A stretch of DNA of 39,689 nt from Lachnospiraceae bacterium (GTDB taxonomy: Bacteria > Bacteroidota > Bacteroidia > Bacteroidales > Muribaculaceae), in the NCBI GenBank assembly GCA_023663655.1, contig JAMPGZ010000026.1, positions 1 to 39,689 of the forward strand. The letters run 5' to 3'. Under the pieces are notes generated by a model. That model saw only the letters and a program-made list of their open reading frames with translations. It was not told the origin of the DNA and did no database searches. Below are positions 5,318 to 25,223 of the stretch, piece after piece. Every line of letters starts with the position of its first letter. The first letter of the stretch is position 1. Position numbers and translations under genes: made by a program.

Positions 5318-6337
5318 ATGGATGTATCTACAAAAAATATGGCAACACCACCTTTTAGCGTTTCGACTAAGGCTATCAATTTGATAGCTGAGATTTCGGC
5401 TCTTTTGGAGCGGCATAATATTGCTCTTGAATCAGAGCAGGGATTGTTGTTGCGCAAAGCTAACCGTATCAAGACCATCCATTCATCGCTTGCTATTGAG
5501 GGAAATAGCCTTTCAGAGGATGAAGTTGCCGACATCATGAACGGTAAGAATGTTGTGGCTCCGATTAAACAGATTCAGGAGGTTAAGAATGCAATCAAGG
5601 TTTATGATGCTTATTCCTCGTTGAACCCGTTTTCAGAGAAAGATATGATGAGAGCCCATGCAATTATGATGGAGGCGCTGACCGATGATGCCGGACGCTA
5701 CAGGTCTAAAGGCGTCGGGGTGTTCGGTGAGCAGGGGTTGGTGCACATGGCTCCACCTCCTCATATAGTGCCTAAGCTCATGGCGGAACTGTTTGATTGG
5801 CTGAAGGAATCTAAAGACCACCTTTTGATCCGGTCGTGCGTGTTTCATTATGAATTTGAGTTTATACATCCGTTTTCTGATGGGAATGGACGCACCGGTC
5901 GGCTTTGGCAATCTTTGATTCTTGGACGGTTGAATCCTCTATTTGAGCATCTTCCGGTAGAGAATATGGTCCATGCTAATCAAGATGCTTATTACAATGC
6001 CATAGCCGCATCTTCGTCAATAGGTGATTCCGCTCCGTTCATCGATTTTATGTTGGAGGAAATACGGAACACTCTTATAAAGCATAAAGTTGAAAAAGTA
6101 GACAATAAAGTAGACAATAAAGTAGACAATAAAAAGCTGAATAAATCGGAAGAAGCTGTGGTAAGGTTGCTGTTGGCGGAACCTTATCTCACGGTAGACA
6201 ATCTGGTGGAAAGAACAGGGCTGTCGGCAAGCGGAGTCAAGAAAGCGCTGACATCGTTGAAATCAGAGGGATGGATTGCCAGAGTGGGCAGTCGAAAGTC
6301 CGGTTCATGGCGAGTGTTGGTTGAACTTAATAAATAG
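5318..6337 (+). CDS. Fic family protein with N-terminal inhibitory motif and C-terminal winged helix
   Basis: This 339-residue protein has a Fic core with the full motif HPFSDGNGRTGR (184-195), so the catalytic His184 is present. Fic enzymes usually transfer AMP from ATP to a hydroxyl of a target protein. An inhibitory-helix motif of the (S/T)xxxE(G/N) type, SLAIEG (57-62), places Glu61 to block ATP productive binding, as in class II Fic proteins. The C-terminus (about 275-335) resembles a winged helix-turn-helix, which suggests DNA binding or self-regulation. A linker at 259-271 contains VDNK three times, encoded by a perfect 12-bp triplet repeat. The gene is monocistronic. A second ATG at 5339 is possible. 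The target is unknown. Confidence 0.9.
   Translation: MDVSTKNMATPPFSVSTKAINLIAEISALLERHNIALESEQGLLLRKANRIKTIHSSLAIEGNSLSEDEVADIMNGKNVVAPIKQIQEVKNAIKVYDAYSSLNPFSEKDMMRAHAIMMEALTDDAGRYRSKGVGVFGEQGLVHMAPPPHIVPKLMAELFDWLKESKDHLLIRSCVFHYEFEFIHPFSDGNGRTGRLWQSLILGRLNPLFEHLPVENMVHANQDAYYNAIAASSSIGDSAPFIDFMLEEIRNTLIKHKVEKVDNKVDNKVDNKKLNKSEEAVVRLLLAEPYLTVDNLVERTGLSASGVKKALTSLKSEGWIARVGSRKSGSWRVLVELNK
6095..6130 (+). repeat. Three perfect 12-bp repeats inside the Fic gene
   Basis: The unit AAAGTAGACAAT occurs three times without a mismatch. It encodes the linker repeat and sits between the Fic core and the winged helix. Copy-number change would keep frame and only lengthen or shorten the linker. Confidence 0.9.
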
Positions 6338-8487: not shown

Positions 8488-9132
8488 ATGCTATGCTTCA
8501 TATTTAACGGACTCATCAGTCAAGCGGCAGGAGCCCTGGCGACCGGAATTGTTATTGCGGTTCTGCTTGTGGGGCTGCTCTTCTTTGTGATAAATATTGT
8601 GGCTGAACGCGGTCGTTTTTCCATTGCCGGCTATGCGGTGGGTGTGGCGCTCTTGCTTTTTCTGGGTTATCACGTGATTCCGGCTTGCGGAGCTGTTGCC
8701 TTGCGGTGGAAATGTGACGATATAGAGCAGTGGCTCAATCAGAATGTGATAAGCCGGATGGATGTCAACAATCTTGCCGAGCTTACACCTGATGAAAGCC
8801 GTGAGGTGGTCGATGCGTTGGTCGAAAATGTGCCGCTTGTGGGCAATTACGTCAATGATCTTCAGCTTGCGGGCATGAGTGCTTCTGTTGTCACATCGAC
8901 TGTAGCGGGAGAGATCCGCTCTACACTTGATTCATTCGTATGGAAATCGGTGCTGTGGAGCCTTGCCGGGCTTCTTGTCGCCTCTGTAATCATATATAAG
9001 ACCATGGAATTCAGGGCATCCGGCTCACGTCAACGTGCGGCAGTCCCGGGTGCCGATAATCGCCGCTCGCCTGTATCTGCCAACCGACGCAGGGCAGTGT
9101 CGGGCGGAGGAGGAAGTTTGAGACGACGTTGA
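8488..9132 (+). CDS. Three-TM protein of the tubulin-like cluster
   Basis: I do not recognise a family. The 214-residue protein has hydrophobic segments at about 16-38, 46-66 and 152-170. Between TM2 and TM3 lies an 85-residue mostly polar domain, probably helical. After TM3 comes a basic, Arg/Ser/Gly-rich tail ending in GGGGSLRRR. With the positive-inside rule, the tail should be cytoplasmic and the middle domain periplasmic. The gene is first in the cluster, 34 nt before the tubulin-like gene, so the basic tail could be a membrane anchor for the GTPase. That partnership is inferred from gene order only. Confidence 0.8.
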   Translation: MLCFIFNGLISQAAGALATGIVIAVLLVGLLFFVINIVAERGRFSIAGYAVGVALLLFLGYHVIPACGAVALRWKCDDIEQWLNQNVISRMDVNNLAELTPDESREVVDALVENVPLVGNYVNDLQLAGMSASVVTSTVAGEIRSTLDSFVWKSVLWSLAGLLVASVIIYKTMEFRASGSRQRAAVPGADNRRSPVSANRRRAVSGGGGSLRRR

Positions 9133-9166
9133 ACATAATTAAAAAATCAATCAAAATAATAACTGT

Positions 9167-12100
9167 ATGATAAATCACATTCTTGTCGGTCTTGGAGGTA
9201 CCGGAGGTAAAATTCTCCGCGAGTTCAAGATGCGAATGTTTGAAGAGTATCCCGATGTCAATGACCGCATGAAGATCCCTGTGGCGCTTCTTTACGTGGA
9301 TACCACCCGTGAGATGATGGGTCTCGGCAGAGAGGACTTCAATGTGCTCGGTCAAGATGCCGGATTTGCCGAAAATGAGTTCTTGAACGTGAAGAGTGTC
9401 GATGTTACCAAGATTATCGACGAGATTGACAACTATCCGAAGCTCCGCGGCATTGTTGACAATGTGAAGGGTGTGCGCTCGGCGATAGGCAACCTCGGTG
9501 AGGCAGCCGGACAGAAGCGTCGCGCAGGCCGTCTGCTCTTTGCAGTCAACGCCGACCGTTATGTGATGGCTCTTCAAGATGCCTATGCCCGTTGCCATAG
9601 AGCTAACTCATCGGGAGAAGCATCGAAAACGGTTCATATTTTTGCCGGTCTTTCCGGTGGTACCGGTTCCGGTTCTATAATCGATGCCGTGGCTCAGGCT
9701 CGTAAGTTGTGGAACGATGCCAAGATTCTTGTTTACGCCATGTTGCCTGAACGTGATCTTCCGAAGCCCGACATGGACAAAGGTCGCTATTATCCCAACG
9801 CTTATGCCGCCATGCGCGAGCTTAACGCGCTTCAGGTGGGCAAATTCCAGCCCTACGATGTGACCGGCGACGGTGAGCCGCTCGATTACATCTCGATGAA
9901 GCCTTCGGCAAAGGGTGTTGCTGACGGTATCTCGGTCTACAGCAACTTGAATGAGAATGAATGCACCGTCAACTCATTCACCGAGCTGCCGCGCATAGTG
10001 AGCGACTTCGCTTATTCACGCATATTCCAGATACGTCCCGATGTTGAGGAGTGCCACGATATACTCCGAGCCTATAATTTCGAGAATCTTGACGGATTTG
10101 AGATGGAGAACGACGAGCGCCTTCTGCCCGATGAGGTTGACAAGGATGAGGAATTCCCCAAGACACGCACCTGCAAGATCAGCTCATTCTCAATCAAGCG
10201 TATCATCTATCCTGAGATGCGTGTGCTCAAGCATATCACCTATTCCACAGGCGAGGATGTGCTCAATCAGCTCCGCTACAACCACTGGAGCGACAACCAC
10301 GGCTTCCTCAACGAGCCGCAGAACAAGGATTACCGCAGCGTGTATCTTGCCGACTCCTATCTCCAGCGTTGGATGCTCGACCTTGAGCACCTCACTTTGG
10401 AGAAAAAAGTGCTTCCGCTCGACAAAGAGTATCCGCCTTTTAAAGAGGACTGGACTGAAAATATAGAGAATCTTGCTGTGCCGTGCCAGGAAGACAGCTG
10501 CCCGCCAGCCGCTATCCGCAGCAGCATGAATCAGATATATAATGAAACTTTCCGTGGCAATGGCGTTGAGACTTATTATAAGGTGAAATCTAAATCCATC
10601 AAAGAGATTGCCAAGGAGATACGCCGCACAGTGGAGCATCAGCTCTTCTCTGAGTGGCGCAACGGCGACCTCTCAATGATGGATCTTGTCAAGATTGTCT
10701 CAATACTGGCTGAATACGTCAGCGATGACTTGAAAAAGAAGATCGATGAGGCTATCGTCAGAAATGATGAAGAGCTGAACAAGAGCTCCAAGACTCTCGA
10801 CGCTATCATCGACGACTGGGCTAACTCAGGATTCCTGCGCGGCAAGCTTCTCGGAAAGAAGAACGACTATTACGCCGAAGCGCGTCTTGAGCTTTCTTAT
10901 CTCATGACCGCCCGCACAATGAAGGTGGCGCTTGAATTTGCCAAGGAACTTCAGCAGTTGCTCAACATGGAGTTTGGCAAATTTGTGGAAGCTGTCAACG
11001 GATTCAATGCTCTTATCAATGATGCTATCGAACGCACCGAGCAGCAACTTGCAGCTCAGAAAAAGAAGAACCCGGGACTTGAAAATCCGAAGGGCTCTAT
11101 CATTGAGGTGAGTGAGGATTCAGCAATGCTCGACTTCGAGAGAGATACCCGTGTCGACAAGAAGATGATGCGCGAGTCGTCTCAGCAATTGCGCGAAGCT
11201 CTTGTGGGCGACAAGGATTTCATTGATTTCGCCGATCTGCATTCGCGTCTCACTATCGATGACTTCCTCCATGCTTTCGACGTGCAGCTCTCAAAGAAGA
11301 TCATTGCCCGCCACGAGGAACTTCCCGTATCGGCTACCAAGGTTCTTGGACTCAACATTCTCACTCAGTTGAAGCAAAAACTCGATACTCAGCAGAAAAT
11401 CAACGAATTTGCTCAGAGTGTGATTCGCCAGACCGGTCCATACGTGATTCTTGATTCAGGTCAGCTCGGTTTTCAGGTGCGCAACAACGACATAGCCAAA
11501 GAGGGCGTGAACCGCAACCTGAAAGAGACCTATATCGCTCTTCCTGATCCCGAGAAGAATCCCGAACTTGAGGACTTCGCCAAGAAACTTGAAAAGGCAT
11601 TCCGTGACATGACACCTCAGGGAGTTAAGGAGCCGAAGATTCATCGTGGAGGAAGCCGCGACAATGAGATGTTTATCATCTCCATCAACTCCGGTTATCC
11701 GATGCGCGCTATCAAGTGGCTCACTCCCGACAAGAAGAAATATGACCGTTTCATGCACTCAGGCAACGCAGTGACCGATCAGACCAACGCCATCATGCTA
11801 CATAGCGAGGGGGAAGGCGACAGTCTGCCCGACATCTTCGCGCTCTCCGACAAGGAGTGCCGCGAACTCGACGCCAAGAAACCTCAGCGTCAGCAGCCCC
11901 AGGCTCCCCAGCAGGCAGCTCCGGCGATGCCCGGTGCTCCCGTGCCTCCCCCGATGCCGGGTGCCGCTGTTCCGCCTCCCATGCCGGCGGCTGACCCCGT
12001 GGTGCAGATGTTCCTCTTCGTAGGTGGCGCCCAATATGGTCCTTATGACTATGCTACTTGCCGCCAGTTCACCACCACCGGACAGTTGACTCAGGAAACT

Positions 12101-12247
12101 ATGGTGTGGGAACAAGGTATGGCTGCATGGACTCCCGCCGGTCAGGTGGAGAAGCTGAAAGGACTGTTTGCTCCGGCGATGCCCACGCCACCTCCTATGC
12201 CACCGGCAGGTGGAGCGACACCGCCGCCCATGCCTCCGGCTATGTAA
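9167..12247 (+). CDS. Tubulin/FtsZ-like GTPase (Tubulin_2 / FtsZl type) with C-terminal GYF_2-like domain
   Basis: This 1026-residue cytoplasmic protein begins with a tubulin/FtsZ-type nucleotide-binding domain: a first glycine loop ILVGLGGTGGKI (5-16), the tubulin signature GLSGGTGSGS (161-170), and a conserved NAYAAMREL segment (211-219). Residues about 330-900 are long and largely helical. The tail is Pro/Gln-rich (about 905-945), then a GYF_2-like domain (about 946-1000, with YGPYD and a W-x-x-G-M-x-x-W pattern), then a second Pro/Met-rich end. Families of this kind (FtsZl) have been proposed to act in membrane remodelling. It has no signal peptide. The genes around it encode membrane and exported proteins, unlike the cell-division context of ftsZ. 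Polymerisation is not shown by the sequence. Confidence 0.87.
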   Translation: MINHILVGLGGTGGKILREFKMRMFEEYPDVNDRMKIPVALLYVDTTREMMGLGREDFNVLGQDAGFAENEFLNVKSVDVTKIIDEIDNYPKLRGIVDNVKGVRSAIGNLGEAAGQKRRAGRLLFAVNADRYVMALQDAYARCHRANSSGEASKTVHIFAGLSGGTGSGSIIDAVAQARKLWNDAKILVYAMLPERDLPKPDMDKGRYYPNAYAAMRELNALQVGKFQPYDVTGDGEPLDYISMKPSAKGVADGISVYSNLNENECTVNSFTELPRIVSDFAYSRIFQIRPDVEECHDILRAYNFENLDGFEMENDERLLPDEVDKDEEFPKTRTCKISSFSIKRIIYPEMRVLKHITYSTGEDVLNQLRYNHWSDNHGFLNEPQNKDYRSVYLADSYLQRWMLDLEHLTLEKKVLPLDKEYPPFKEDWTENIENLAVPCQEDSCPPAAIRSSMNQIYNETFRGNGVETYYKVKSKSIKEIAKEIRRTVEHQLFSEWRNGDLSMMDLVKIVSILAEYVSDDLKKKIDEAIVRNDEELNKSSKTLDAIIDDWANSGFLRGKLLGKKNDYYAEARLELSYLMTARTMKVALEFAKELQQLLNMEFGKFVEAVNGFNALINDAIERTEQQLAAQKKKNPGLENPKGSIIEVSEDSAMLDFERDTRVDKKMMRESSQQLREALVGDKDFIDFADLHSRLTIDDFLHAFDVQLSKKIIARHEELPVSATKVLGLNILTQLKQKLDTQQKINEFAQSVIRQTGPYVILDSGQLGFQVRNNDIAKEGVNRNLKETYIALPDPEKNPELEDFAKKLEKAFRDMTPQGVKEPKIHRGGSRDNEMFIISINSGYPMRAIKWLTPDKKKYDRFMHSGNAVTDQTNAIMLHSEGEGDSLPDIFALSDKECRELDAKKPQRQQPQAPQQAAPAMPGAPVPPPMPGAAVPPPMPAADPVVQMFLFVGGAQYGPYDYATCRQFTTTGQLTQETMVWEQGMAAWTPAGQVEKLKGLFAPAMPTPPPMPPAGGATPPPMPPAM

Positions 12248-12267
12248 ATGCAACGACATGACCGCTT

Positions 12268-12298
12268 ACAGGATGCACGATCAATGCGTGCATCCTGT
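12268..12298 (+). other. Perfect 12-bp hairpin between the GTPase and zinc-ribbon genes
   Basis: The arms ACAGGATGCACG (12268-12279) and CGTGCATCCTGT (12287-12298) enclose a 7-nt loop. No T tract follows, so this is unlikely to be a simple terminator. It may stabilise the upstream message or adjust expression between the two genes. Confidence 0.7.
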
Positions 12299-12345
12299 CA
12301 ATGCAAAAACCGATATTAGTTTAATGTTATAAAAATAAAATAAAA

Positions 12346-13008
12346 ATGGCTGAACCATCAAGACGCGGTTCACGCGCTGCCGGAAAAACCGGAATGTGTG
12401 TGAACAGAGATTGTAAAAATTATCAACAGAAAATCACAGTGGATCACGGCGATTTCGTGTGTCCCGAGTGTGGAAAAACTCTTGTGCCCATCAAAGGCGG
12501 CGACAAGCCCCAGAAGAAAATGTGGGTGAGCGCCATTATCGGCGTTGTTGTCATCGCGGCTGCAGTAGCTGTCTATATGATTTCTCAGGCTGGCGGCTCC
12601 TCAGAACCCGAAGTTGCCCCTGTAGACACTGCCGTAGTTGAAGAACCCGTAGTAGAGCCGGTTGATACTGTAGCTCCGGTTGACACTGTGGCAGCAGTGG
12701 AAGAGCCCAAGGAAGAACCGAAAGCGGAGCCTTCAGAAACTTCTAAAGCTGCGCCTGCCGGCGGAACTCTCCCTTATGGCAAGTACACCGGTCCCATGAG
12801 CGGCGGCAAACCCCACGGTGTGGGCGGCAGCGTGGCTGTGAACAGCAGCTACACTTTCGATCTTAACGACGGCACCACTGTCAGCGTGGCTTCGGGCGAC
12901 AAGATCGAGAACACCAAGTTCCAGAACGGACGCCTTGTGCAGGGTGAGATCCAGCGTACCAACGGCGACCGCAAGTGGATCACCTTAGGTGCATCCAATG
13001 GTCGTTGA
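12346..13008 (+). CDS. Zinc-ribbon / single-TM / MORN-like protein
   Basis: This 220-residue protein has an N-terminal four-Cys zinc ribbon (Cys18, Cys23, Cys39, Cys42), one TM helix (about 61-80), a Val/Glu/Pro-rich linker with repeated PVDTV (about 85-135) and a C-terminal domain whose start resembles a MORN repeat (YGKYTGPMSGGKPHGVGG, 144-161). The topology should place the zinc ribbon in the cytoplasm and the MORN-like part in the periplasm. No family member with a known role is recognised. Its position after the tubulin-like GTPase suggests a link between the filament side and the envelope. The next gene overlaps its end by 11 nt, so the two are translationally coupled. Confidence 0.82.
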   Translation: MAEPSRRGSRAAGKTGMCVNRDCKNYQQKITVDHGDFVCPECGKTLVPIKGGDKPQKKMWVSAIIGVVVIAAAVAVYMISQAGGSSEPEVAPVDTAVVEEPVVEPVDTVAPVDTVAAVEEPKEEPKAEPSETSKAAPAGGTLPYGKYTGPMSGGKPHGVGGSVAVNSSYTFDLNDGTTVSVASGDKIENTKFQNGRLVQGEIQRTNGDRKWITLGASNGR

Positions 13009-14110
13009 TCGGCGCGGAATATTATTGATTCTTACATCGTTGTGGGCGGTTATGCTGCCTGCAACGATGCTTCCTGTTGTAAACTATGCCACTGACCGCC
13101 TTGAGCGCATAGCTTCGATGTTGCGCATAGGAGCGGCGGTAGAGCGTGGTGAGACAGATTTTACCCATAATGGCAATCAGGTGAGCGTGGTCAGAAACAA
13201 CGATGTGGTGACCCATATAGGCTACAGCCTGTTTGTCAACAACGAAAGGGAATTGTTTGACTTGCCGGTATTCGATTTTCTCGAGCGTTCAGCGCTTGAG
13301 GCTGACTTGCCCGGCATCCTGAAAGATGTGACTGTCGAGCGCTCTCTTGAAGAGGACGGAGTGAGATATGCCAACGGCGATCTGCGTTCGCTCCTTACCG
13401 TGGCTCCTGACAAAACGCTGTCGCTCGCTATCGAGAATCCCGACGGGAGGAATTATCTGTTGCGTTGGACCGATGCTGCCGGAAATGTGGCTTACGCGGT
13501 CACTTTCCCCATCTTTTACGATCTCTTGCATGGAACAGAGATGAAGGAGAATGAGCGCCGGCTGTGGGAAGGGTTGTCGCGGCATTCCATTGTGCATCGC
13601 GACACGCTGCAAGTTGATGCGTCGATGCTCATTGAGTCGCCCGATTCAGCAGTGCTGGTCCTTGAAGGTGACCAGTATTATTTCCCTGAAAACAATTCCA
13701 ACCGCTACTATGAGTCGGTTGACTCCGCCACATTCAAGCTCGTGTGCAGCGACGATCATCCGCTCTACAGCCTTGCCAATCTTGTGACGAGCACCGAGAT
13801 AGTGAACAACTATAAGGTGCGTGTGCGATTGGTGGGATATGATTATTCCGACAAGTATTTTACCATGCCGTTAAGTGAGTTTGTCGATTATTTCATCGGT
13901 AAGGGTTGCAAGCCCTACTTTGGAGTGATTGAGGCTGACGATAAGAAAATAACGGCATTGCTCTCGATGAAAAACGAAAAGGAGGGATATTGCCACAATA
14001 TCAGGCTCACTGCCCCCTCTTCGATAATCAACATCGAAAACGGGGAGATAACGGCAAGAATAACTCCCTACATCCCCATTTCACGTATTTTGTCATTATT
14101 TGACGATTAA
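12998..14110 (+). CDS. Hypothetical exported or membrane-anchored protein
   Basis: I do not recognise a family. The 370-residue protein starts with a hydrophobic segment after a basic N-terminus (MVVDRRGILLILTSLWAVML), an export signal or membrane anchor. The rest is soluble, acidic and mixed alpha/beta, with no Cys cluster or clear enzyme motif. The ATG at 12998 overlaps the previous gene by 11 nt; an in-frame GTG at 12989 would add three residues. The following gene begins directly at its stop codon. The tight packing supports a shared function with its neighbours in the envelope. Confidence 0.75.
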   Translation: MVVDRRGILLILTSLWAVMLPATMLPVVNYATDRLERIASMLRIGAAVERGETDFTHNGNQVSVVRNNDVVTHIGYSLFVNNERELFDLPVFDFLERSALEADLPGILKDVTVERSLEEDGVRYANGDLRSLLTVAPDKTLSLAIENPDGRNYLLRWTDAAGNVAYAVTFPIFYDLLHGTEMKENERRLWEGLSRHSIVHRDTLQVDASMLIESPDSAVLVLEGDQYYFPENNSNRYYESVDSATFKLVCSDDHPLYSLANLVTSTEIVNNYKVRVRLVGYDYSDKYFTMPLSEFVDYFIGKGCKPYFGVIEADDKKITALLSMKNEKEGYCHNIRLTAPSSIINIENGEITARITPYIPISRILSLFDD

Positions 14111-14995
14111 ATGATTATGAAATTAAGACTAATCATAGCATTATTGCTCATCACAGCCGGTATCGGCTCGGTGTCAGCTCAAAAGACCGAAGCTAAACAG
14201 ATCAATATGATCAAGCTTGACGGTCGGTATCTGTATGGCGAAGCTACAATGCCTACAGAAGCAGAAGCGAAAGAGGCTGCCGATATAACGCTGATCAATT
14301 ACATCAATGATAAGCTCAAGGAACACCACATAGACCGCCGTCTCGGTCTTGACGGGCTTGAGCAGACTCAATATATAACTGTCAAGAGGGGAGCCAACAT
14401 CCGCGTGTTCGCCTACGTGGAGTGCAGCGTCTACGGCATCCCCTCCGCAGCATCGCAGGCGGCTGCCGTGACCGAGACAAGCGTGCCTGTGCAGCCGCAG
14501 CCTAAACCGCAGCCGCAACCTGTGGCCCAGGCTCCCGCCGCACCGGTTGAAGCTCCACGCCAACAGCCGCAACCTAAACCGGAACCGCAGCCTGTAGCCC
14601 AGGCTCCCGCCGCACCGGTTGAGACACCACGTCCCTCAGCCCCGCAACCCGCTCCCAAGCAGCAGGTGCCTGACCGCAGCATTGCTTCCGGCTCGGGGCT
14701 CTCGGCATGGCAGAATGAGGCGATTGAGGACCTTCTTAGAGCCCCCAATCTCAACAGTGCCGCCCAGTTGCTCAATGAATTTCGTGGCGCGCGCAAGGTG
14801 CTCGCTTTCGGAAGCCCCAAGGAATGCCCTGACGCATCCAAGTGTTTTTGGGTGGTGTTTGACAATAACTTGAACACTATTACCGTTTTAAGTAACGGCG
14901 ACAATGATGTGCGACACAATTTCAAGACCGGATCCGGTGACGGGCTCGGCAACTATTCGGGAAACACAGCAGTGTGGTTTATGTTAAGTAAATAA
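14111..14995 (+). CDS. Hypothetical exported protein with Pro/Gln-rich repeat linker
   Basis: This 294-residue protein has a signal peptide (cleavage near SVSAQ), an N-terminal domain of about 100 residues, a Pro/Gln/Ala linker (about 120-200) and a C-terminal domain (about 205-294). The linker holds two copies of a 24-residue unit containing PVAQAPAAPVE, encoded by a 72-bp tandem repeat (about 14519-14636). The start follows the upstream stop codon without a gap; a second ATG at 14117 gives a cleaner signal peptide. I do not recognise a family. The layout of two globular parts joined by a flexible linker suits a periplasmic spanning or peptidoglycan-crossing protein. Confidence 0.75.
   Translation: MIMKLRLIIALLLITAGIGSVSAQKTEAKQINMIKLDGRYLYGEATMPTEAEAKEAADITLINYINDKLKEHHIDRRLGLDGLEQTQYITVKRGANIRVFAYVECSVYGIPSAASQAAAVTETSVPVQPQPKPQPQPVAQAPAAPVEAPRQQPQPKPEPQPVAQAPAAPVETPRPSAPQPAPKQQVPDRSIASGSGLSAWQNEAIEDLLRAPNLNSAAQLLNEFRGARKVLAFGSPKECPDASKCFWVVFDNNLNTITVLSNGDNDVRHNFKTGSGDGLGNYSGNTAVWFMLSK
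14519..14636 (+). repeat. 72-bp imperfect tandem repeat in coding sequence
   Basis: Two adjacent copies with a 72-bp period encode the Pro/Gln linker unit of the exported protein. The period is a multiple of three, so copy changes would keep the frame. Confidence 0.75.
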
Positions 14996-15014
14996 TAAAT
15001 TCAATCATATAGCA

Positions 15015-16082
15015 ATGAAAAAGCTTTTATCAATATCTCTGATATTAATTCTGTCATCGGCAGGTGGCATCAACGCCGCTCCCGATGAAGCCGGCTGGAA
15101 TGCTGAATCGGCAGCCGCATATTTTAAATATCTTGAGGGTATGTCGGAAGTCTACGGCGCTCCGATGGCTGTTGATGATTACGGCAAGGATGTGACTTTC
15201 CAGTTCTCCGACGGCATCTCCTCTCCGCAGTTGAAGCAGAAGATGGAGCAGCAGATGAGCCAGCTTCTCACCAACCTCAATAAGGCTGCATATAACAATG
15301 CCGATGTGAACTATGCCGGTCTCGATATCGATAACCTCGCTTCGCAGACTATAGGCATGACATGGAACAATGTCCACTTCACCACCGAGGAGGATTTCAT
15401 CGTGGACCACTGCCTCACCATAAAGTCGGGCGGCAGAGTGTCGGGCTATCAGGTGAGAAATATAGGGGTGAATATGCTCCCCATCAATGACACTTACGGA
15501 GGTCCCATGAGAAAGGAGCTTTGCATCGATTTCAATTCTGCGGGCAAGATCATCGACTTCAACTTCACTATGGATAAGACCAACTATGTCAACATCATGA
15601 AGGAGGGGCTTCGCCTGAAGGATGAGGATCGCCGAATGATGATCATCGGTTGGTGCCAGCAGTTTGAGAAGGCGTATTGCGACAAAAACATCCGCTTCAT
15701 CGAGGATGTGTTCAGCGATGATGCGCTCATCATCACCGGTAAACTTGTGACCCAGCGCGTGAAGAACGATGTCATGCCGCAGAATGGCGTGGTGTTTGAG
15801 CAGAAAGGCAAGAAGGAATACATCGCAGGACTGAAAAGAATGTTTGCCAACAATCAGCGTCTTAAGGTGAAGTTTGACGATTACCGCGTGGTGCGTCATC
15901 CGGCAAAGCCCGATTATTATGGCGTAACTCTTAAGCAGGACTGGCATTCCGACAGCTACAGCGACCAGGGAAGCGTGTTCCTGTTGTGGGATTTCACCGA
16001 TGAGGATCACCCCAAGATTCATGTGCGCACATGGGAGCCGGGCATCGAATGCTCGTTCAAGGCTACTGACTTTAAAATCTAA
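15015..16082 (+). CDS. Exported protein with C-terminal NTF2/SnoaL-like domain
   Basis: This 355-residue protein has a signal peptide (MKKLLSISLILILSSAGG...). The C-terminal part (about 210-345) has the pattern of an NTF2-like cone fold: a helical start (FEKAYCDKNIRFIEDVFSD), a central KKEYIAGLKRMF segment and final strands ending in VRTWEPG. NTF2-like domains bind small ligands or act as scaffolds; no catalytic residues can be assigned. The N-terminal half has no recognised fold. It lies 19 nt after the previous gene and 21 nt before the SUMF1-like gene, so it is part of the same transcription unit. Confidence 0.75.
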   Translation: MKKLLSISLILILSSAGGINAAPDEAGWNAESAAAYFKYLEGMSEVYGAPMAVDDYGKDVTFQFSDGISSPQLKQKMEQQMSQLLTNLNKAAYNNADVNYAGLDIDNLASQTIGMTWNNVHFTTEEDFIVDHCLTIKSGGRVSGYQVRNIGVNMLPINDTYGGPMRKELCIDFNSAGKIIDFNFTMDKTNYVNIMKEGLRLKDEDRRMMIIGWCQQFEKAYCDKNIRFIEDVFSDDALIITGKLVTQRVKNDVMPQNGVVFEQKGKKEYIAGLKRMFANNQRLKVKFDDYRVVRHPAKPDYYGVTLKQDWHSDSYSDQGSVFLLWDFTDEDHPKIHVRTWEPGIECSFKATDFKI

Positions 16083-16103
16083 AAACCACTCATAACAATA
16101 ACA

Positions 16104-17234
16104 ATGAAACATTTTTGTCTTTCAATCATCACACTCCTTTTCGCTTTTGCCGCAAGCGCTCAGGAGCTAATGGTCACCAAATTTTCGGCTGATCCGAGCG
16201 ACATCAGTGCCGTGTCCCACCAAGTGCTTGACGGCAACGGAGATCCGTGTGCGTTGGTGAAAGTGGGTATCAAAGCTCAGAATCCTGTATTTGAAGGCGA
16301 CATCATCAAGACCGAGGATAAGAACGGCGAATACTGGGTGTATATGGTCGACGGCGCCCGCTATATGAATATAAAGTCGGACAACTACATTCCATTGCGT
16401 TATGATTTTGATCCGCTTGCAAAGAACACCACCTATATCATGCAGGTTTCCGAGGCTGACGGTTCAGTGCTTCAGGAACGTCTTTCTGTCACCATCCAGC
16501 CCAATGCGAGCAGCGTATCGATAGGCGGACGCAAAGTGAAAGAGTCCAAGCCGGTGGTATTTGACCTTATTCTTGTGCCTGCCGGAATGTTCAAGATGGG
16601 AGCCACTGCCGAGCAGAAGGGCGCCGATGATGATGAGAAGCCTGATCACTGGGTGACCATCTCCAAGCCGTTCTATATCGGCGAGACCGAGGTGTCGCAG
16701 GAACTTTGGGAGCACGTCATGGGCGAGAATCCGTCTAAGTTTAAAGGTGCCGATCTTCCGGTGGAGAGCATCTCCGTTGCCGATGCCGAGGACTTCGTGA
16801 AGCGTCTCAGCACTCAGACCGGCGCCAAGTTCCGTCTCCCGACTGAAGCCGAATGGGAGTATGCCGCACGTGGTGGCAACAAGGTGCCAACCCAGACTCT
16901 TTATAGCGGCGGCGACGATGCCAATGCCGTGGCATGGCACATAGGCAACTGCTTGAATAAAACTCATGAGGTGAAGTCCAAGACTCCTAATGCCCTCGGA
17001 TTGTACAACATGAGCGGAAATGTGTTTGAAATATGCCAGGATGCCAAGGAAGATTACAGTTCAAGGGCTGTCGATGATCCGTTGGTAGTGAAAAAAGGCG
17101 CTGCCAGAGTGCGCCGTGGCGGAGCTTGGGACAGCGAGAGCACCAATGAGCTTCGTGTCGCTTTCCGTCGCCGCATGGCTCTTGACGGAGCATATCGCAA
17201 CACTGGTCTGCGTGTAGTCATGGAAGCTGAATAA
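16104..17234 (+). CDS. Exported SUMF1-like (formylglycine-generating-enzyme fold) protein
   Basis: This 376-residue protein has a signal peptide cleaved near ASAQ, an N-terminal beta-rich domain (about 21-140) and a SUMF1/FGE-type domain (about 150-375). Landmarks of the fold are FRLPTEAEWEYAARGG (243-258), LYNMSGNVFEI (300-310) and RRGGAW (337-342). The paired cysteines that bind copper in true formylglycine-generating enzymes are absent from the segment after RRGGAW, so sulfatase maturation is unlikely. Related proteins in Bacteroidetes serve as surface or secretion-associated components. It is the last of the exported cluster proteins; the metallophosphoesterase gene follows after 10 nt. 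Confidence 0.86.
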   Translation: MKHFCLSIITLLFAFAASAQELMVTKFSADPSDISAVSHQVLDGNGDPCALVKVGIKAQNPVFEGDIIKTEDKNGEYWVYMVDGARYMNIKSDNYIPLRYDFDPLAKNTTYIMQVSEADGSVLQERLSVTIQPNASSVSIGGRKVKESKPVVFDLILVPAGMFKMGATAEQKGADDDEKPDHWVTISKPFYIGETEVSQELWEHVMGENPSKFKGADLPVESISVADAEDFVKRLSTQTGAKFRLPTEAEWEYAARGGNKVPTQTLYSGGDDANAVAWHIGNCLNKTHEVKSKTPNALGLYNMSGNVFEICQDAKEDYSSRAVDDPLVVKKGAARVRRGGAWDSESTNELRVAFRRRMALDGAYRNTGLRVVMEAE

Positions 17235-17244: not shown

Positions 17245-18249
17245 ATGCTACGTAAAATATTATTCGGCATGGCAGTCCTTGCAGGGGCTGCCATGTTTGC
17301 TAAAACCGAGCTTCGTTTCAATCCCGAGGGAGAGTTTAAAATCGTCCAGTTCACCGACAATCATTTCAAGGTGGGCAAGAGCGCATCGGAAGCCACAGTG
17401 AAATGCATCGAGGAGGTTATTACAGCCGAGCAGCCCGATCTTGTGATGTTCACAGGCGACCAGGTGTATTCCGATTCTGTCATAGACGGATTCAAGGCGA
17501 TTCTGCGCCCCATACTCCAACGCAAGATTCCGTTTGCTTTTGTGTTTGGCAATCACGACACCCAATTTGAGCTCGATCATGCTCAGATATATGACTTCTT
17601 GCAGCCGCTTCCTTACTCGGTCATGCCGCAGCGCAATCCCGGCATCGACAGTCCCGACTATGCCATAGAGGTAATGTCGGCTAAGAGCGACAGCGTGGCA
17701 AGTGTGCTGTACTGCCTTGACTCCCATAGATCTACCCCGATAAAAGGTATTGGGAAATATGCTTGGCTGAAACCCGAGCAGGTGATGTGGTACAAGGATC
17801 TGAGCTGGGCTTATCAGGTGAAAAATGACGGCGACACGCTTCCGTCGCTGATGTTTTTCCACATCCCTCTCCCTGAGGTGGCTACGGCTTGGGATGACAA
17901 TGAGAACATGGGCTATGGCACCAAGGGCGAAAAGGTGTGCTGTCCGGCGTTGAATTCCGGAATGTTCACTGCAGTAAAGGAGCGTGGCGATGTCATGGGT
18001 ATATTCTGCGGTCATGACCACGACAATGACTATGTGGTGGATTATTACGGCGTGTTGCTGGGCTATGGCAGATATTCCGGTGGGAACACCGTCTACAATC
18101 ACATCGGCAAGAACGGTGCCCGCATCATTGTTCTGAAAGAAGGTGAGAAGAGTTTCGACACTTGGGTAAGGCTCCGCGACGATGAGGTCATCGACAAAGT
18201 GTCGTATCCCGCCGACTTCACCGGCAAAAAACGCAAAAAACAAAAATAA
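17245..18249 (+). CDS. Exported calcineurin-like metallophosphoesterase
   Basis: This 334-residue protein has a signal peptide (MLRKILFGMAVLAGAAMFA) and all motifs of the dinuclear metal site: FTDNH (D-x-H), FTGDQ, FGNHD and GHDHDND. Such enzymes hydrolyse phosphomono- or diesters in the periplasm; the substrate is unknown. It begins 10 nt after the SUMF1-like gene, so it is co-transcribed with the cluster. It may be a passenger rather than part of the tubulin-like system, since exported phosphatases of this type are common on their own. Confidence 0.9.
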   Translation: MLRKILFGMAVLAGAAMFAKTELRFNPEGEFKIVQFTDNHFKVGKSASEATVKCIEEVITAEQPDLVMFTGDQVYSDSVIDGFKAILRPILQRKIPFAFVFGNHDTQFELDHAQIYDFLQPLPYSVMPQRNPGIDSPDYAIEVMSAKSDSVASVLYCLDSHRSTPIKGIGKYAWLKPEQVMWYKDLSWAYQVKNDGDTLPSLMFFHIPLPEVATAWDDNENMGYGTKGEKVCCPALNSGMFTAVKERGDVMGIFCGHDHDNDYVVDYYGVLLGYGRYSGGNTVYNHIGKNGARIIVLKEGEKSFDTWVRLRDDEVIDKVSYPADFTGKKRKKQK

Positions 18250-20298: not shown

Positions 20299-22155
20299 TT
20301 ATTTCACTGTTGTGCCGCGGAATGTTTTTCCTTTGAGGTCGGGACCGAAATAGAAGCCCGGTTGGGTGGGCTGGTTGTATGCTACGTTCTGGGTCGCGAT
20401 GCTTATGCGGTAGACCGGATCCTCAAGGAATGTGTGGAAGCGATATTCTGTGGGTATTGTGGATACGTACAGGCGCAGCGCCGAATTGTCGGCTGTGCGG
20501 AGCAGCACTTCCTCGCGCCAGTCGCCCACGATATCGCCCTGCAGGCATGGATTTGCCTTGGTGCCATTGTTTGACACACATCCTTCAAACACCGTCATCG
20601 GCACTGCCGTGCCTTTTTCCCAGTCATATTTGAACACTGTGTTTCGGTCAAGAAGTTCCCTGAGCAGGTCACCGTCCCACCACACAGCCATATTAACCGG
20701 CACACGAGCTTTCGCAGGTCCATTAAACTTGTGTTTGGAGGAGATGAGTTCCCCCTTGAATGAGCGCACTCCACCGGTGTTGGGTGACCACACTTCCACT
20801 CCCGGATATCGTGGGTCGATGTCGGCAGCCATGCATCTGCCTATGTCGTAATCGCTCGGATAGCGGAGCAGCACCTTGCCGGTGGCTGCGTCGCGCAGGG
20901 TAGAGCCGTCGATTTTGTTTTCATGACAGCACCACACCTGGAAATTGTTGCTGTCGGGGTCAAACATGGTGAGATGCATCGCGTCGCCGTGATACATGCC
21001 GGTTGTGTACAAGCCCTTGCCGTCATTATCCACAGCCATTTGACCGTAGATGATTTCGTCGCATCCATCGCCGTCAACGTCGGCTACGCGCAGGTTGTGG
21101 TTGCCTTGACCGGCATATCCTTCACATCCGGGATTGTTGCTGTCAAACACCCACTTGGAGGTCAACTCCTTTCCATCCCAGTCAAATGCGGCGAGCACCG
21201 TGCGGGTGTAATAGCCTCGGCACATCACCACACTCGGACGGCTGCCGTCAAGGTAGGCGACACAAGCGAGGAAGCGGTCGCTGCGGTTGGCTTTTTCATC
21301 GCCCCAGTCCGATGGATTGCCGCGTTGAGGTATGTAGTCGACGGTTTTCATCGCCTCGCCTGTCAACCCGTTGAACACCGTCAGATAATCGGGACCCTCA
21401 AGTATGCGCCCCATGGGGCTGCGCCAGTCGGCATTGGCATCGCCAATCACGTTGCCCTTGGCGTCCACTGTTCCGTCGGCGGTGCGGCATATCACCTCCG
21501 CCTTGCCGTCGAGATCGAAGTCATATACCATGAATTGTGTGTAGTGAGCTCCGGCACGTATGTTTCTTCCAAGGTCTATGCGCCACAGCCGCTCGCCGCT
21601 GAGCCGGTAGCAATCGAGATACTGGTTGCCGGTGTAGCCGTTGTGTCCGTTGTCATGGGCGTTGGATGGATCCCATTTCAGGATTATCTCATATTCACCG
21701 TCGCCGTCCACGTCGCCTATCGATGCGTCGTTGGGTGCGTAGAAACAGGTCGATCCGTCGGGCATAGTCAATTTGTCGGGAGCAGAAAGCGGAATGTTGA
21801 TGTATCCTTCAGGCGCGTTTTCAGGGAGAGTGTATTGTCCCGATTTCTTTCCGCGCATCGGTTTCACTACATATTCCGCACTATTGCTTCCGGAATATGC
21901 ATCCTTGAAAAATGTGGTTTTCTTTAGAGGAGAAGAATTGAGTTTCTTTCCGTCGCGATACACGTCGAAAGCCTCGTTTTCGGAGTCTTCCGACAGGTAT
22001 CTCCATGACACAGTGACCGTGTCGGCATTATCACGGACGGCTACTACACCCCTGCCGAGATTCTCTTGTTGGAGTTTGTAAAAATCATACTGTGGTCCGG
22101 CAAAGATTGTCATAGCCGCAGGAAATGAACACAGCAACAATAGAAAATTTTTCAT
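20299..22155 (-). CDS. Rhamnogalacturonan lyase, PL11 family
   Basis: This 618-residue exported protein resembles PL11 rhamnogalacturonan-I lyases (YesW/YesX type), which cleave the alternating rhamnose-galacturonate backbone by beta-elimination. A signal peptide (MKNFLLLLCSFPAAMTIFAG) is followed by a fibronectin-like N-terminal domain and an eight-bladed propeller with many calcium-type loops (IGDVDGDGEYEI, YDFDLDGKAEV, VADVDGDGCDEI). The length fits the family. The start at 22155 gives a proper signal peptide; an upstream in-frame ATG at 22254 would put 33 non-signal residues in front and is rejected. The only promoter-like box is TAACTTTA on the minus strand (22193-22186). The gene is divergent from the rest of the pectin region. 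Confidence 0.93.
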   Translation of the reverse strand: MKNFLLLLCSFPAAMTIFAGPQYDFYKLQQENLGRGVVAVRDNADTVTVSWRYLSEDSENEAFDVYRDGKKLNSSPLKKTTFFKDAYSGSNSAEYVVKPMRGKKSGQYTLPENAPEGYINIPLSAPDKLTMPDGSTCFYAPNDASIGDVDGDGEYEIILKWDPSNAHDNGHNGYTGNQYLDCYRLSGERLWRIDLGRNIRAGAHYTQFMVYDFDLDGKAEVICRTADGTVDAKGNVIGDANADWRSPMGRILEGPDYLTVFNGLTGEAMKTVDYIPQRGNPSDWGDEKANRSDRFLACVAYLDGSRPSVVMCRGYYTRTVLAAFDWDGKELTSKWVFDSNNPGCEGYAGQGNHNLRVADVDGDGCDEIIYGQMAVDNDGKGLYTTGMYHGDAMHLTMFDPDSNNFQVWCCHENKIDGSTLRDAATGKVLLRYPSDYDIGRCMAADIDPRYPGVEVWSPNTGGVRSFKGELISSKHKFNGPAKARVPVNMAVWWDGDLLRELLDRNTVFKYDWEKGTAVPMTVFEGCVSNNGTKANPCLQGDIVGDWREEVLLRTADNSALRLYVSTIPTEYRFHTFLEDPVYRISIATQNVAYNQPTQPGFYFGPDLKGKTFRGTTVK

Positions 22156-22185
22156 GATTTGAATGTGATTTTTGAATTGGAGTTT

Positions 22186-22213
22186 TAAAGTTAGCGCATT
22201 TTTCTTAAATTTG
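22186..22213. promoter_or_regulatory. Back-to-back -7 boxes between PL11 and the GH28 remnant
   Basis: TAAATTTG on the plus strand (22206-22213) points to the GH28 remnant, with a leader of about 25 nt. TAACTTTA on the minus strand (22193-22186) points to PL11. The boxes are 12 bp apart, so the two transcripts may compete or respond together. Confidence 0.5.
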
Positions 22214-22243
22214 CTGTACATACCAAATAAATTCTTATCGTCC

Positions 22244-22414
22244 ATGAATTTCATTGCACGTGCGTGGCTGACGATACTGTCAGCTTTTTCTATTGTGGCT
22301 CTATCGGCTCAATCCGGTGAGCTTGTCTATAATACTCAGCTCCGTGACAGCATCTTGTCACAGATCACCGGAGGCCTCCACCCCGTACGGGAGATTGCTT
22401 CCTCGACATATTAA
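22244..22414 (+). pseudogene. Truncated 5' end of a GH28-type gene (or small exported peptide)
   Basis: The frame encodes 56 residues: a signal peptide (MNFIARAWLTILSAFSIVALSAQ), then YNTQLRDSILSQITG, then 13 unrelated residues and a stop. The YNTQLRDSILSQITG stretch is also found at the mature N-terminus of the intact GH28 gene at 25325. The DNA is identical over 46 bp (22328-22373 and 25424-25469), although the signal peptides differ. A promoter box and start codon remain, so a short secreted peptide may still be made. The likeliest reading is a GH28 paralogue cut just after its N-terminus. Confidence 0.72.
22328..22373 (+). repeat. 46-bp direct repeat, left copy
   Basis: Identical to 25424-25469, 3096 bp away. 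It contains GTGACA/TGTCAC arms around a 6-bp loop inside CTCCG/CGGAG. The LRR_5 gene lies between the two copies. Confidence 0.9.
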
Positions 22415-22496
22415 TTTTAAAGCACTGAACTCCCGAAAATTTGTAACTTAGGCAAGAGATCATTTTACCTGTCAACCAATCTTATACTTTATCACA

Positions 22497-25223
22497 ATGA
22501 AAAATTTGATGCATCGTTTATTCTCAATCTTTATACTCGTAGCAGTTTTTGGAACGCCATTGTATAATTACGCACAAACATTCAGCTATAATGGAATAAA
22601 TTATAGTATTCTTGATGAAACAGAACAGACGGCGGTTGTAGGCTATAACTGCTATGCACAGGGGGATGTCTGCGTAAGTCCGCGTGTTCTTTTTAATGAT
22701 AAAATCTACAGTGTGGTCGCCGTGTGTGATAGCGCGTTTTATCTTAACAACACTGTCAAGAGCATTACCTTTCAGGGATCCGGTTCTCTGACAGAGATCG
22801 GGCAGTACGCTTTTTATGGTTGCACTTCTCTTGAAAAAATAATTCTTCCAGAAACGGTTTCATTTATAGGCAGTAATGCTTTTGGAAGGTGTGAACAGTT
22901 GGCTGATATCAAGCTTCCAGCTTCCTTGAAAACTATATACCACTATGCTTTTTGGATGTGTACGGGACTTGCTTCAATCACTCTGCCGGCTTCGGTGGAG
23001 TATGTGCGGAGCGGAAATGTGTTTGCAGGCTGTACGTCACTGACACGGATTAATGTTGAAGAAGGAAGTCAACATTATAAATCCATTGACGGGGTGCTCT
23101 ATAGCTATGACGGTAAGAAAATATGTGCCTACCCTTTAGGAATATCAGATTCCTATGCAATTCCTGAAGGCGTGATTACCATTGGCGAGGGAGCTTTCAT
23201 TGGGCATGAGACTTTGTCAGGAGTCACGCTGCCGAGCACCATAACATCCATAGAACGCGAGGCTTTTTTACTTTGTGAAGGTCTCACTTCGATAGAATTG
23301 CCCCCCGTGCTAAATACCATAGGGCTTCAAGCATTTACTGGATGCCCTTTGACTTCTGTGAAATGTCACTCATTGACCCCGCCGACAGCGCCGATAAATA
23401 TTTTTGATGAGGATGTCTACAAAAATGGACGGTTATGGTGTCCCGGCGAGAGTGTTGACGTTTATCGCAATCAGGAGCCATGGAGCAAATTCAAGACAAT
23501 TGACTATCCTTATACTATGAAGTTTGACATTAATGAGGATAGAGAAAGTGTCGCCCTTACATCTCTGGATGTAAAAGATTACACAACCATCCACATACCA
23601 TCGGTCGCTACCGTCAATGGCAAGTCTTATCCCGTCACTGTGATAGGGCCGGCAGCTGCAAGTAGCGTTTACAAACTGAAGGAAGTGGTTATCCCAAATT
23701 CGGTGACTGAAATCAAGGGTTCTGCTTTTAATAATTGCGTCAATATGACAAGCGTCACTCTCCCGGAATCTTTGACTTCGATTGGAAATAGTGCTTTTAT
23801 GCGATGTGTATCGCTTAAAGAATTGGACATCCCGGAGTCTGTCGGAAGCATTGGTCCCTTTGCATTTTCTGGGTGTAGCTCCATGGAACATATCATGTTG
23901 CCCCGGTCATTGACAGTGATTGATGCAGGGTTGATGAGCGGTTGCTCTGCTCTGCAAAGCATAAACATCCCTGAAAGTGTGACAACCATAAACCGAAGTG
24001 CATTTAATGGCTGTGAAAATTTGAAACGGATAGAAATTCCTGCCGGCGTGGACACAATAGATCCTTCAGCTTTTAATGATGCATTTTCGTTAGAGATGAT
24101 TGAAGTCCATCCAGATAACAAAAAATACAAATCGGAAAATGGAATAGTGTTCACTGATGACTGCAAAACTCTGTTCCGCTATCCATGTGGCAGGGTAGGG
24201 GCGTATACTATACCCAGCGATGTGGATAAATTGTACGGGTACGCATTTCAAGGTAGCAGGAATCTTAGCTCTGTTCTGATTCCGCATTCAATAAAAACTA
24301 TTGATGGTGGAGCATTTGAGGATTGTGCAAGTCTTGAGTGCCTTGAGATACCGGACAATGTGACATCTATTGGAATTGGTGCGTTTATGGACTGTGAAAA
24401 CTTGAAAAAAGTGAAGCTCCCAGAGTCAATCGATATAGTTCCAAGCTCATGTTTTGGTGGTTGCTCCAATCTGGATAATGTCACCATTCCGGAGTCGGTT
24501 TACATCATAGAATACGGGGCATTCGCCAACTGCGAGAATTTGACGAAGATAGCCATTCCAGAATCTGTGACCAACATATACGATGATGCTTTCGTCGGTT
24601 GTACTGCCCTTGAAGAAATATTCATTCCTAATTCGGTTAAGGAAATGGGGAATTCGGTGTTCAGATATTGCCAGTCATTGAAAAATATCCATTTGCCTGA
24701 GGGGCTTACGAATCTACAATATTCGACATTCGAATATTGCAGTAGCCTTGAGAAAATTGATATTCCAAGCTATGTGATCGCTATCGGCAATATGGCATTT
24801 TATGGATGTGTCAATCTGAAGGAAGTGCTTTTGCCAAGTGGGATAGCAAAAATAGGCGCAAGTTGTTGGGGGGAATGCTTAAACCTAAAAAAGATTCAAT
24901 ACACTGCCTCAACCCCAATCGAAGCTGAAAAGAATATTTTCAGCGATCAAACTTATGGTATGGCTGTGCTATATTGTAATGGCAATAATGTGTCCCAATA
25001 TTATAAGACTATGCCATGGGGGCTTTTTGGTAACATAATAGGAGTGGAAGAAGAGACCGATGGTCTATCTGATACTGTTGTTCATGAAGAACAAGCCGAC
25101 ATCAAGGTCTATGACCTTTCGGGAAGGATGGTGTATTCCGGATCCCGCTCAGAAATGACTCTTGATTCCGGATTTTATATCCTGTCACAAGGAGCCTCTG
25201 CCAAGAAAATTGTAGTGCCTTGA
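22497..25223 (+). CDS. BspA-type leucine-rich repeat surface protein with type IX-like C-terminus
   Basis: This 908-residue protein has a signal peptide (cleavage near NYAQ) and a long run of LRR_5 repeats of about 23 residues with the pattern IGxxAFxxCxxLxxIxLPxSVxxI, in two blocks separated by a non-repeat stretch (about 300-390). Such proteins bind host or bacterial surface ligands. The last 70 residues resemble a type IX secretion sorting domain (IKVYDLSGRMVYSG, then SGFYILSQG and KKIVVP), which suggests export to the cell surface. A Glu/Asp-rich hinge precedes it. The coding sequence is AT-richer than its neighbours and lies between the 46-bp repeats, which hints that it entered this locus separately. 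Confidence 0.9.
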   Translation: MKNLMHRLFSIFILVAVFGTPLYNYAQTFSYNGINYSILDETEQTAVVGYNCYAQGDVCVSPRVLFNDKIYSVVAVCDSAFYLNNTVKSITFQGSGSLTEIGQYAFYGCTSLEKIILPETVSFIGSNAFGRCEQLADIKLPASLKTIYHYAFWMCTGLASITLPASVEYVRSGNVFAGCTSLTRINVEEGSQHYKSIDGVLYSYDGKKICAYPLGISDSYAIPEGVITIGEGAFIGHETLSGVTLPSTITSIEREAFLLCEGLTSIELPPVLNTIGLQAFTGCPLTSVKCHSLTPPTAPINIFDEDVYKNGRLWCPGESVDVYRNQEPWSKFKTIDYPYTMKFDINEDRESVALTSLDVKDYTTIHIPSVATVNGKSYPVTVIGPAAASSVYKLKEVVIPNSVTEIKGSAFNNCVNMTSVTLPESLTSIGNSAFMRCVSLKELDIPESVGSIGPFAFSGCSSMEHIMLPRSLTVIDAGLMSGCSALQSINIPESVTTINRSAFNGCENLKRIEIPAGVDTIDPSAFNDAFSLEMIEVHPDNKKYKSENGIVFTDDCKTLFRYPCGRVGAYTIPSDVDKLYGYAFQGSRNLSSVLIPHSIKTIDGGAFEDCASLECLEIPDNVTSIGIGAFMDCENLKKVKLPESIDIVPSSCFGGCSNLDNVTIPESVYIIEYGAFANCENLTKIAIPESVTNIYDDAFVGCTALEEIFIPNSVKEMGNSVFRYCQSLKNIHLPEGLTNLQYSTFEYCSSLEKIDIPSYVIAIGNMAFYGCVNLKEVLLPSGIAKIGASCWGECLNLKKIQYTASTPIEAEKNIFSDQTYGMAVLYCNGNNVSQYYKTMPWGLFGNIIGVEEETDGLSDTVVHEEQADIKVYDLSGRMVYSGSRSEMTLDSGFYILSQGASAKKIVVP

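Follow-up and report, generated by a model that had tools for sequence, protein, structure and literature searches.

The stretch of DNA analyzed here (the window) has 39,689 nucleotides and is one of the 45 contigs of a 2.9-Mb genome assigned to the Muribaculaceae in the order Bacteroidales (contig JAMPGZ010000026.1, assembly GCA_023663655.1). It carries an operon, conserved among Bacteroidales from gut and rumen, in the order A (three transmembrane, or TM, segments), B (a tubulin-like GTPase), C (zinc ribbon-TM-MORN), D, E, F (NTF2), G (FGE), and H (phosphoesterase). Comparison of this operon with its relatives indicates that the GTPase is one of several cytoplasmic front ends that can be exchanged on a shared exported module. 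The original prediction for this DNA had taken the exported proteins to be dedicated to the GTPase. This turned out to be too narrow, as they are also encoded downstream of Ser/Thr kinases or of a TIR protein, or without any front end, and the trees of B and F disagree strongly. At the level of sequence, the family membership of B, the conserved gene order, the sharing of the exported module, and the exchange of front ends are all evident. This suggests a plug-in signaling device rather than a dedicated cytoskeleton.

Conservation of the operon

Loci were collected by homology to B only, from a family sample of 197 genomes and from 280 relatives in named genomes, of which the best 80 were used. 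Removal of four duplicates (L032, L033, L034, and L040) left 88 loci, which form 86 clusters at 95% identity. Genes were taken as selected open reading frames (ORFs), with small genes and true starts possibly wrong, and the TM segments and N-terminal export segments of A, C, and D to G were predicted from hydropathy. All ORFs on which the original prediction was built were recovered, and they form one tight run on the forward strand.

Of the 67 loci that extend far enough downstream, 63 have C, D, E, and F in that order; E is present in 64 of these loci, and C, D, and F are present in 66 each. A lies directly upstream of B in 72 of the 80 loci with enough upstream sequence. The order is broken in four loci: E is missing from L069 and L107, C is not in place in L087, and L130, from a Chitinophagales metagenome-assembled genome, has C only. 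The gaps between the genes of the block have medians of -4 to 36 nucleotides, with the four duplicate loci included. Outside the block nearly everything differs: the first genes upstream of A in 58 loci represent 53 families, and the nearest opposite-strand genes downstream of F in 34 loci represent 32. The block is therefore a real unit that is found at many genomic sites, and its constancy while the surroundings change strongly supports a functional unit. The conserved trans-envelope unit that had been predicted thus stands after a check of the gene order across genomes, and the neighbors of B do not vary freely. The block is also present in named strains, namely, Bacteroides oleiciplenus YIT 12058, Xylanibacter brevis ATCC 19188, Phocaeicola faecicola AGMB03916, and Caecibacteroides pullorum AN421. 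The genes after F are less constant, being either G-labeled genes or, elsewhere, a pair encoding proteins of approximately 520 and 250 amino acids (e.g., in L057, where neither protein of the pair matched a Pfam family above the cut-off).

The GTPase

B was described from the letters alone as a 1026-residue protein with the tubulin signature GLSGGTGSG. This description was correct, as the signature is present at residues 161 to 169 and Pfam Tubulin_2 matches with 152.6 bits (cut-off, 27; E value, 2e-44) over 355 of its 356 positions. In an alignment of 62 sequences, both GTP-binding loops are invariant at G8, G10, G11, T12, G13, and G14 (T1) and at G161, L162, G164, G165, T166, G167, S168, and G169 (T4). 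The GGGTG(S/T)G-type loop of FtsZl1 is present in B as SGGTGSG, with the core GGTGSG invariant in all 62 sequences. A separate FtsZ with an FtsZ_C domain is encoded elsewhere in this genome, so that B is not the division FtsZ but an extra protein of the tubulin superfamily. A profile alignment of B to 17 FtsZ sequences, meant to find a counterpart of the T7 loop, H7, and C-terminal domain of FtsZ, covers residues 106 to 183 only, around T4, and gives nothing for the C-terminal part. Profiles of B, D, and E gave weak matches without a common theme among PDB sequences. Some of those of B are to helical proteins; FtsZl1 has an extended coiled coil and an alpha-helical C-terminal region. Toward its C terminus, B has a GYF_2 domain (53 bits), which had been overlooked before, and a GYF domain is present in 51 of the 80 full-length B proteins of this long type (type I).

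Membrane proteins and exported proteins

The three-TM protein of the original prediction is A, which has hydrophobic segments at residues 21 to 39, 46 to 64, and 151 to 169; exactly three such segments are found in 72 of 77 A-labeled ORFs, the window included. The C terminus of A is basic, as the last 35 residues have a median net charge of +9 and the charge is at least +5 in 62 of 76 proteins. The reading of C as a zinc-ribbon/TM/MORN-like protein was borne out as well, the MORN part by way of homologues. The four zinc-ribbon cysteines (C18, C23, C39, and C42) are invariant in 16 aligned sequences, and 80 of 82 C-labeled ORFs have one TM segment. For the single C sequence the Pfam zinc ribbon scores 16.3 bits, which is below the cut-off of 29, and Pfam MORN has no match in the C protein of the window itself. 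A profile of the tubulin-class C terminus (the MORN profile) matches the C protein of the window at residues 133 to 218 (2.6e-25) and finds the same domain (1.7e-20) in a protein of locus L166, where Pfam MORN scores 26.3 bits against a cut-off of 22.5.

D, E, F, and G each start with a hydrophobic N-terminal segment, in agreement with the four exported proteins that had been proposed. When 60 D and 33 E sequences were compared with Pfam, each family that appeared was matched by one sequence only, and the D and E proteins of the window matched none. The NTF2-like protein is F, which matches Pfam Cds6_C with 27.4 bits, just above the cut-off of 27. In L192, L193, and L194 an E-like N terminus is fused to F. 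The SUMF1-like protein is G (FGE-sulfatase, 141 bits). The FGE/SUMF1 sulfatase-activating enzyme needs a catalytic cysteine pair near its C terminus. The FGE C-terminal motif is found in only 11 of 68 G-labeled ORFs, a label that comes from an iterated profile and pools FGE, PEGA, and other exported proteins, and none of these 11, nor the G protein of the window, has a C....C pair after the RGG motif. We therefore rejected an active FGE enzyme for G of the window. G-labeled genes are present in 41 loci, 17 of which have two to four copies. The missing cysteine pair and the multiplication of the G genes would fit binding rather than catalysis. H, which had also been overlooked, follows G in the tubulin loci L036, L037, L039, and L125 and in loci of other kinds (L150, L162, L163, and L165).

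Kinase and TIR proteins on the same exported module

In the family sample, 110 of the 197 genomes have some match to B, which for most of them involves a type II protein or no more than the GYF/proline tail, and 11 have a long type I match. The D profile matches 29 genomes, which include all 11 with type I B and leave 18 without B. For the absence of B, the B profile was rerun on 11 of these 18 and on G157, and the other seven were taken from the initial search. In the rerun, nine genomes had no match, G048 and G009 had weak matches inside 926-amino-acid type II frames, and G157 has a type I B. In an order sample of 295 genomes, B is present in five and D in nine, and all five B genomes have D.

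We identified the replacement front ends in 25 regions collected with D, some of which end at contig edges. A Ser/Thr kinase gene lies ahead of D in 14 of the 18 family genomes without B, with one gene in between in G108. In the others, there is nothing ahead of D (G048 and G009), or a match to the MORN profile without a kinase (G122), or the region is unread (G127). Ahead of D in the four B-less genomes of the order sample are a kinase (G019), a TIR protein (G218), and a protein with weak matches to Sel1 (G300 and G448). Altogether, Pfam analysis of 18 replacement front-end proteins from 17 loci identified Pkinase in 16, TIR_2 in one (L166, from the order level), and neither in one (L160).

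The profile of tubulin-class C proteins matches the kinase and TIR proteins over the TM segment and the periplasmic part, starting from positions 55 to 66 and leaving out the zinc ribbon; in L160, which has no kinase, the match begins at position 98. The MORN profile matches 10 of the 16 kinase proteins at 1e-12 or better, in addition to the TIR protein of L166 mentioned above. A fusion of kinase, TM segment, and MORN domain is thus the rule, although it is not universal. Among 15 kinase loci, PP2C is encoded in five, a zinc-ribbon/FHA-like protein in four, a caspase in four, FHA in three, and LytTR in three. In L151, L153, L156, and L157, FHA, caspase-like, PP2C, and kinase-TM-MORN proteins and LytTR are encoded ahead of D-E-F, which gives a eukaryote-like signaling cluster; in L157, where the contig starts, LytTR and FHA were not detected.

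Two further loci (L162 and L163) have D-E-F-G-H without A, B, C, or a kinase in front, and they are nested among the tubulin-class loci on the F tree.

Exchange between modules

Both forms occur within the genus of the window: of its nine genomes in the family sample, four have B and two have the kinase form, and the other three lack both B and D. Three changes of the kinase label are needed on the F tree, which has 110 rows; this number is approximate because the row of L160 is labeled kinase without a kinase match. Using 65 loci with full-length B and F, the GYF state of B needs one change on the B tree and 10 on the F tree, and a single clade of the F proteins from GYF-positive loci was rejected (approximately unbiased [AU] test, P = 4.3e-6).

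The window itself reflects this pattern. It was compared with 12 chosen loci, with a near relative (L052, B 87.5% identical) set aside. Its B protein is 45 to 53% identical to that of six GYF-class loci and 27 to 36% identical to that of six GYF-less loci, whereas its F protein is 50 to 58% identical to that of the six GYF-less loci and 31 to 41% identical to that of five of the six GYF-class loci. The exception is L055, a GYF-class locus whose F protein is 57% identical to that of the window. D follows the pattern of F (33 to 38% for GYF-less versus 23 to 29% for GYF-class loci), as does G where the ORF is comparable (37 to 52% versus 25 to 33%). The histories of B and F are discordant.

Docking of the GYF domain to a proline motif in C was considered separately. 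PPP is found beside the TM segment of C in 43 of 50 GYF loci versus 5 of 29 loci without GYF; one of the seven GYF loci that lack it is L087, in which the C call is doubtful. We kept this as a lead only, as there is a single change of the GYF state on the B tree, independent pairs gave no support, and the C protein of the window has no PPP.

A possible trans-envelope signaling system

We give roughly even chances to the explanation that the operon encodes a modular trans-envelope signaling system with a tubulin-like switch in the position of a receptor kinase. A trans-envelope path is the most economical one, because a kinase joined to a TM segment and a periplasmic domain has the architecture of a receptor and these periplasmic parts recur in the tubulin operon, where a zinc ribbon-TM part and the GTPase replace the kinase. 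The MORN domain of C, together with D, E, F, and the variable proteins encoded after F (here G), would detect or act on a target in the periplasm or at the surface. C would pass the signal across the inner membrane to its own zinc ribbon, and B would be a GTP-dependent switch, probably oligomerizing on the membrane beside the basic tail of A, that sets a cytoplasmic state. B would thereby take the place of the Ser/Thr kinase or TIR domain in the sister systems with the same exported module. We infer the contact of C with B, the contact of the MORN domain with D, E, or F, the GTP-dependent assembly, and the outside-in direction. A more specific version is tentative: it is possible that a tubulin-superfamily GTPase serves as a receptor transducer that is interchangeable with a Ser/Thr kinase and a TIR domain on a common periplasmic sensing module and that is swapped by recombination within a genus. 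If this is true, a relative of tubulin would act as a signaling switch across the envelope and not as a cytoskeletal polymer alone.

Several points weigh against this signaling explanation. The putative interactions and signal direction are proposed from sequence comparison, and Pfam recognized no effector domain in the tubulin operon. Low-complexity linkers add to the matches of the C profile. Among the 16 kinase proteins, the MORN match is weak in L174 (0.015), and there is none in the kinase proteins of L150, L153 (one of two), L164, L165, and L172. No A was detected in eight loci (L056, L094, L100, L120, L124, L126, L130, and L131). The order counts describe the nearer relatives, since of the 280 relatives in named genomes the best 80 contributed loci. 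The F and B trees are quick searches with long branches, and duplicated F genes may raise the discordance. Finally, L162 and L163 keep D-E-F-G-H without a front end, so that the exported module may also function independently.

Other explanations have to be considered. One is a cytoskeletal or membrane-remodeling machine, in which B forms filaments on the inner membrane with the help of A and C, and these are tethered to the wall or the outer membrane by the exported proteins. This is the view of the original prediction, such a role was proposed for FtsZl1 by Makarova and Koonin (2010, PMC2875224), and it would fit a tubulin-superfamily GTPase with invariant GTP loops, conserved membrane partners, and a division FtsZ that is encoded separately. 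Yet kinases and a TIR protein, which are combined with the same exported module, need no filament; moreover, the similarity to FtsZ profiles is around T4 alone, and T6-H7 was not confidently identified in FtsZl1 according to the same paper. We consider this machine rather doubtful. The occurrence of E-F sets without B in other families of the phylum, like the persistence of D to H alone in L162 and L163, would also fit a module that builds a surface complex, with the GTPase or kinase merely regulating its expression or assembly. Such a display function leaves unexplained why B is never found without D in either sample (11 of 11 and 5 of 5 genomes) and why D is beside B in 66 of 67 loci, and it seems quite improbable.

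It is unlikely, although somewhat less so, that the operon is an immune-like conflict system in which exported proteins of the FGE/PEGA type sense an intruder or a neighbor and the GTPase, kinase, or TIR domain executes the response. Kaur et al. (2020, PMC7159879) describe GTPase-centric systems in which tubulin and a kinase plus PP2C are alternatives to each other and in which FGS, GYF, NTF2, and PEGA domains take part. The multiple G-labeled copies in 17 of 41 loci, the TIR genes located at the module or close by in L166 and L168, and the patchy distribution would agree with such a system. However, PADLOC gave no match for B, the PD-T4-6 matches of C (TM/linker) and E (proline-rich stretch) are weak, and the matches of the L151 kinase look generic. 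Moreover, Pfam found no P-loop GTPase, FNIII, or vWA domain among genes A to I of the window, and no toxic effector was recognized.

Relation to known systems

FtsZl1 has been known since 2010 with poorly defined partners, and it can now be given a fixed six-gene core, A to F; its function is constrained by comparison, as a kinase or a TIR domain can be found ahead of the same exported module. B shares with FtsZl1/Tubulin_2 (PF13809) the N-terminal FtsZ-like GTPase, the long C-terminal extension, and the membrane-associated partners. Whereas Makarova and Koonin (2010, PMC2875224) name vWA, kinase, GTPase, and OmpA proteins as partners, genes A to I of the window gave no Pfam match to vWA, OmpA, a P-loop GTPase, or a kinase; here the partners are a zinc ribbon-TM-MORN protein and D to G, with a GYF domain in one clade. 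A Bacteroides caccae sequence is included in the Figure 1 legend of that paper, and part of the Bacteroidales neighborhood may be tabulated in its additional files.

The nearest conceptual precedent is the GAP1-N2 GTPase-centric conflict systems of Kaur et al. (2020, PMC7159879), in which tubulin, HSP70, or a kinase with PP2C are non-overlapping themes. Both have a tubulin or a kinase plus PP2C near a membrane, and FGS, GYF, NTF2, and PEGA domains recur. The operon of the window differs in that Pfam matched neither a TRAFAC-type GTPase nor FNIII nor vWA in it. Kaur et al. place the tubulin theme in firmicutes and actinobacteria, and the word MORN does not occur in their main text. Neither the operon nor the shared MORN module was present in titles or the beginnings of abstracts among the open-licence PMC matches listed, which is not proof of absence.

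Myxococcus GltJ acts as a zinc-ribbon/GYF switch. The NCBIfam GltJ model weakly matches the GYF tail of B (19.6 bits) and the TM/linker region of C (20.4 bits), far below its equivalog cut-off of 450 bits. These matches, like those from PADLOC, were set aside as generic or due to linkers and low complexity.

Wider relatives and a second tubulin lineage

F is found in 26 of 392 genomes of the phylum and in 55 of the 197 family genomes, partly in other architectures. In 20 regions outside the family (from 16 phylum genomes), E-labeled and F-labeled genes recur side by side, with a C label in L189 only; B labels and matches to the L151 kinase are absent from all of these regions, TIR being outside this search. 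Conversely, B and a zinc ribbon-TM C protein were found without detectable D to F in L130 (Chitinophagales), and on a Paraburkholderia plasmid (L195) a B homologue (25.9% identity over 84%) is followed by a zinc ribbon-TM-TPR C protein, also with D to F not detected. The PLSDB table lists no gene in the stretch of this homologue. Because E-F occur without B and B-C without D to F, two modules appear separable, and the Bacteroidales operon looks like a tubulin-like GTPase with a zinc ribbon-TM part and a MORN domain with D-E-F and the following genes, joined through C. Carriage by plasmids or phages was rejected, as the plasmid match above is the only one, and a distant one, and there was no phage match.

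A separate type of locus in the same family (type II, L043 to L051) also encodes a Tubulin_2-like GTPase, of approximately 925 amino acids, and is nearer to the published vWA/FtsZl1 pattern. All nine of these loci have a protein of 569 to 642 amino acids upstream and one of 1072 to 1161 amino acids downstream, with no A or C to G labels. In L043, the sole type II locus scanned with Pfam, the upstream protein has vWA and the downstream protein is papain-like. In L013, L016, and L022, also from family genomes, a B-like GYF domain with a proline-rich tail ends proteins of 465 to 491 amino acids (44 to 51% identical over the match), which, judged by eye, we take to resemble SPFH-type membrane scaffolds.

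Features and neighboring genes of the window

Table 1. Features of the tubulin-like GTPase operon, in window coordinates
Feature	Position	Strand	Evidence
A, 214 amino acids, three TM segments, Arg-rich C-terminal tail	8488..9132	+	Hydropathy
B, tubulin-like GTPase, Tubulin_2/FtsZl1 family, 1026 amino acids	9167..12247	+	Pfam Tubulin_2
T4 GTP-binding loop GLSGGTGSG of B	9647..9673	+	Conservation in 62 sequences
GYF_2 domain of B, between proline-rich stretches	12014..12157	+	Pfam, residues 950-997
C, zinc ribbon-TM-MORN-like protein, candidate membrane-spanning link	12346..13008	+	
Zinc ribbon of C (C18, C23, C39, C42), predicted cytoplasmic, topology inferred	12397..12471	+	
TM segment of C	12526..12582	+	Hydropathy
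MORN-like domain of C, predicted periplasmic, common to kinase and TIR front ends	12742..12999	+	
D, predicted exported protein without known domain	12989..14110	+	Alignment of 60 sequences
E, predicted exported protein with proline-rich linker	14111..14995	+	
F, predicted exported protein, NTF2-like C-terminal domain	15015..16082	+	Pfam Cds6_C
G, predicted exported FGE/SUMF1-like protein	16104..17234	+	Pfam FGE-sulfatase
H, calcineurin-like metallophosphoesterase, block member in this sub-lineage	17245..18249	+	Pfam Metallophos, 55.6 bits

Downstream of the operon, positions 20299 to 35880 of the window encode a rhamnogalacturonan lyase 11, a BspA-type leucine-rich repeat protein, GH28 and GH92 proteins, a C25 peptidase, and a TonB-dependent receptor, which together look like a pectin utilization locus. 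Upstream, positions 5318 to 6337 encode a Fic/DOC family protein with a winged-helix domain.

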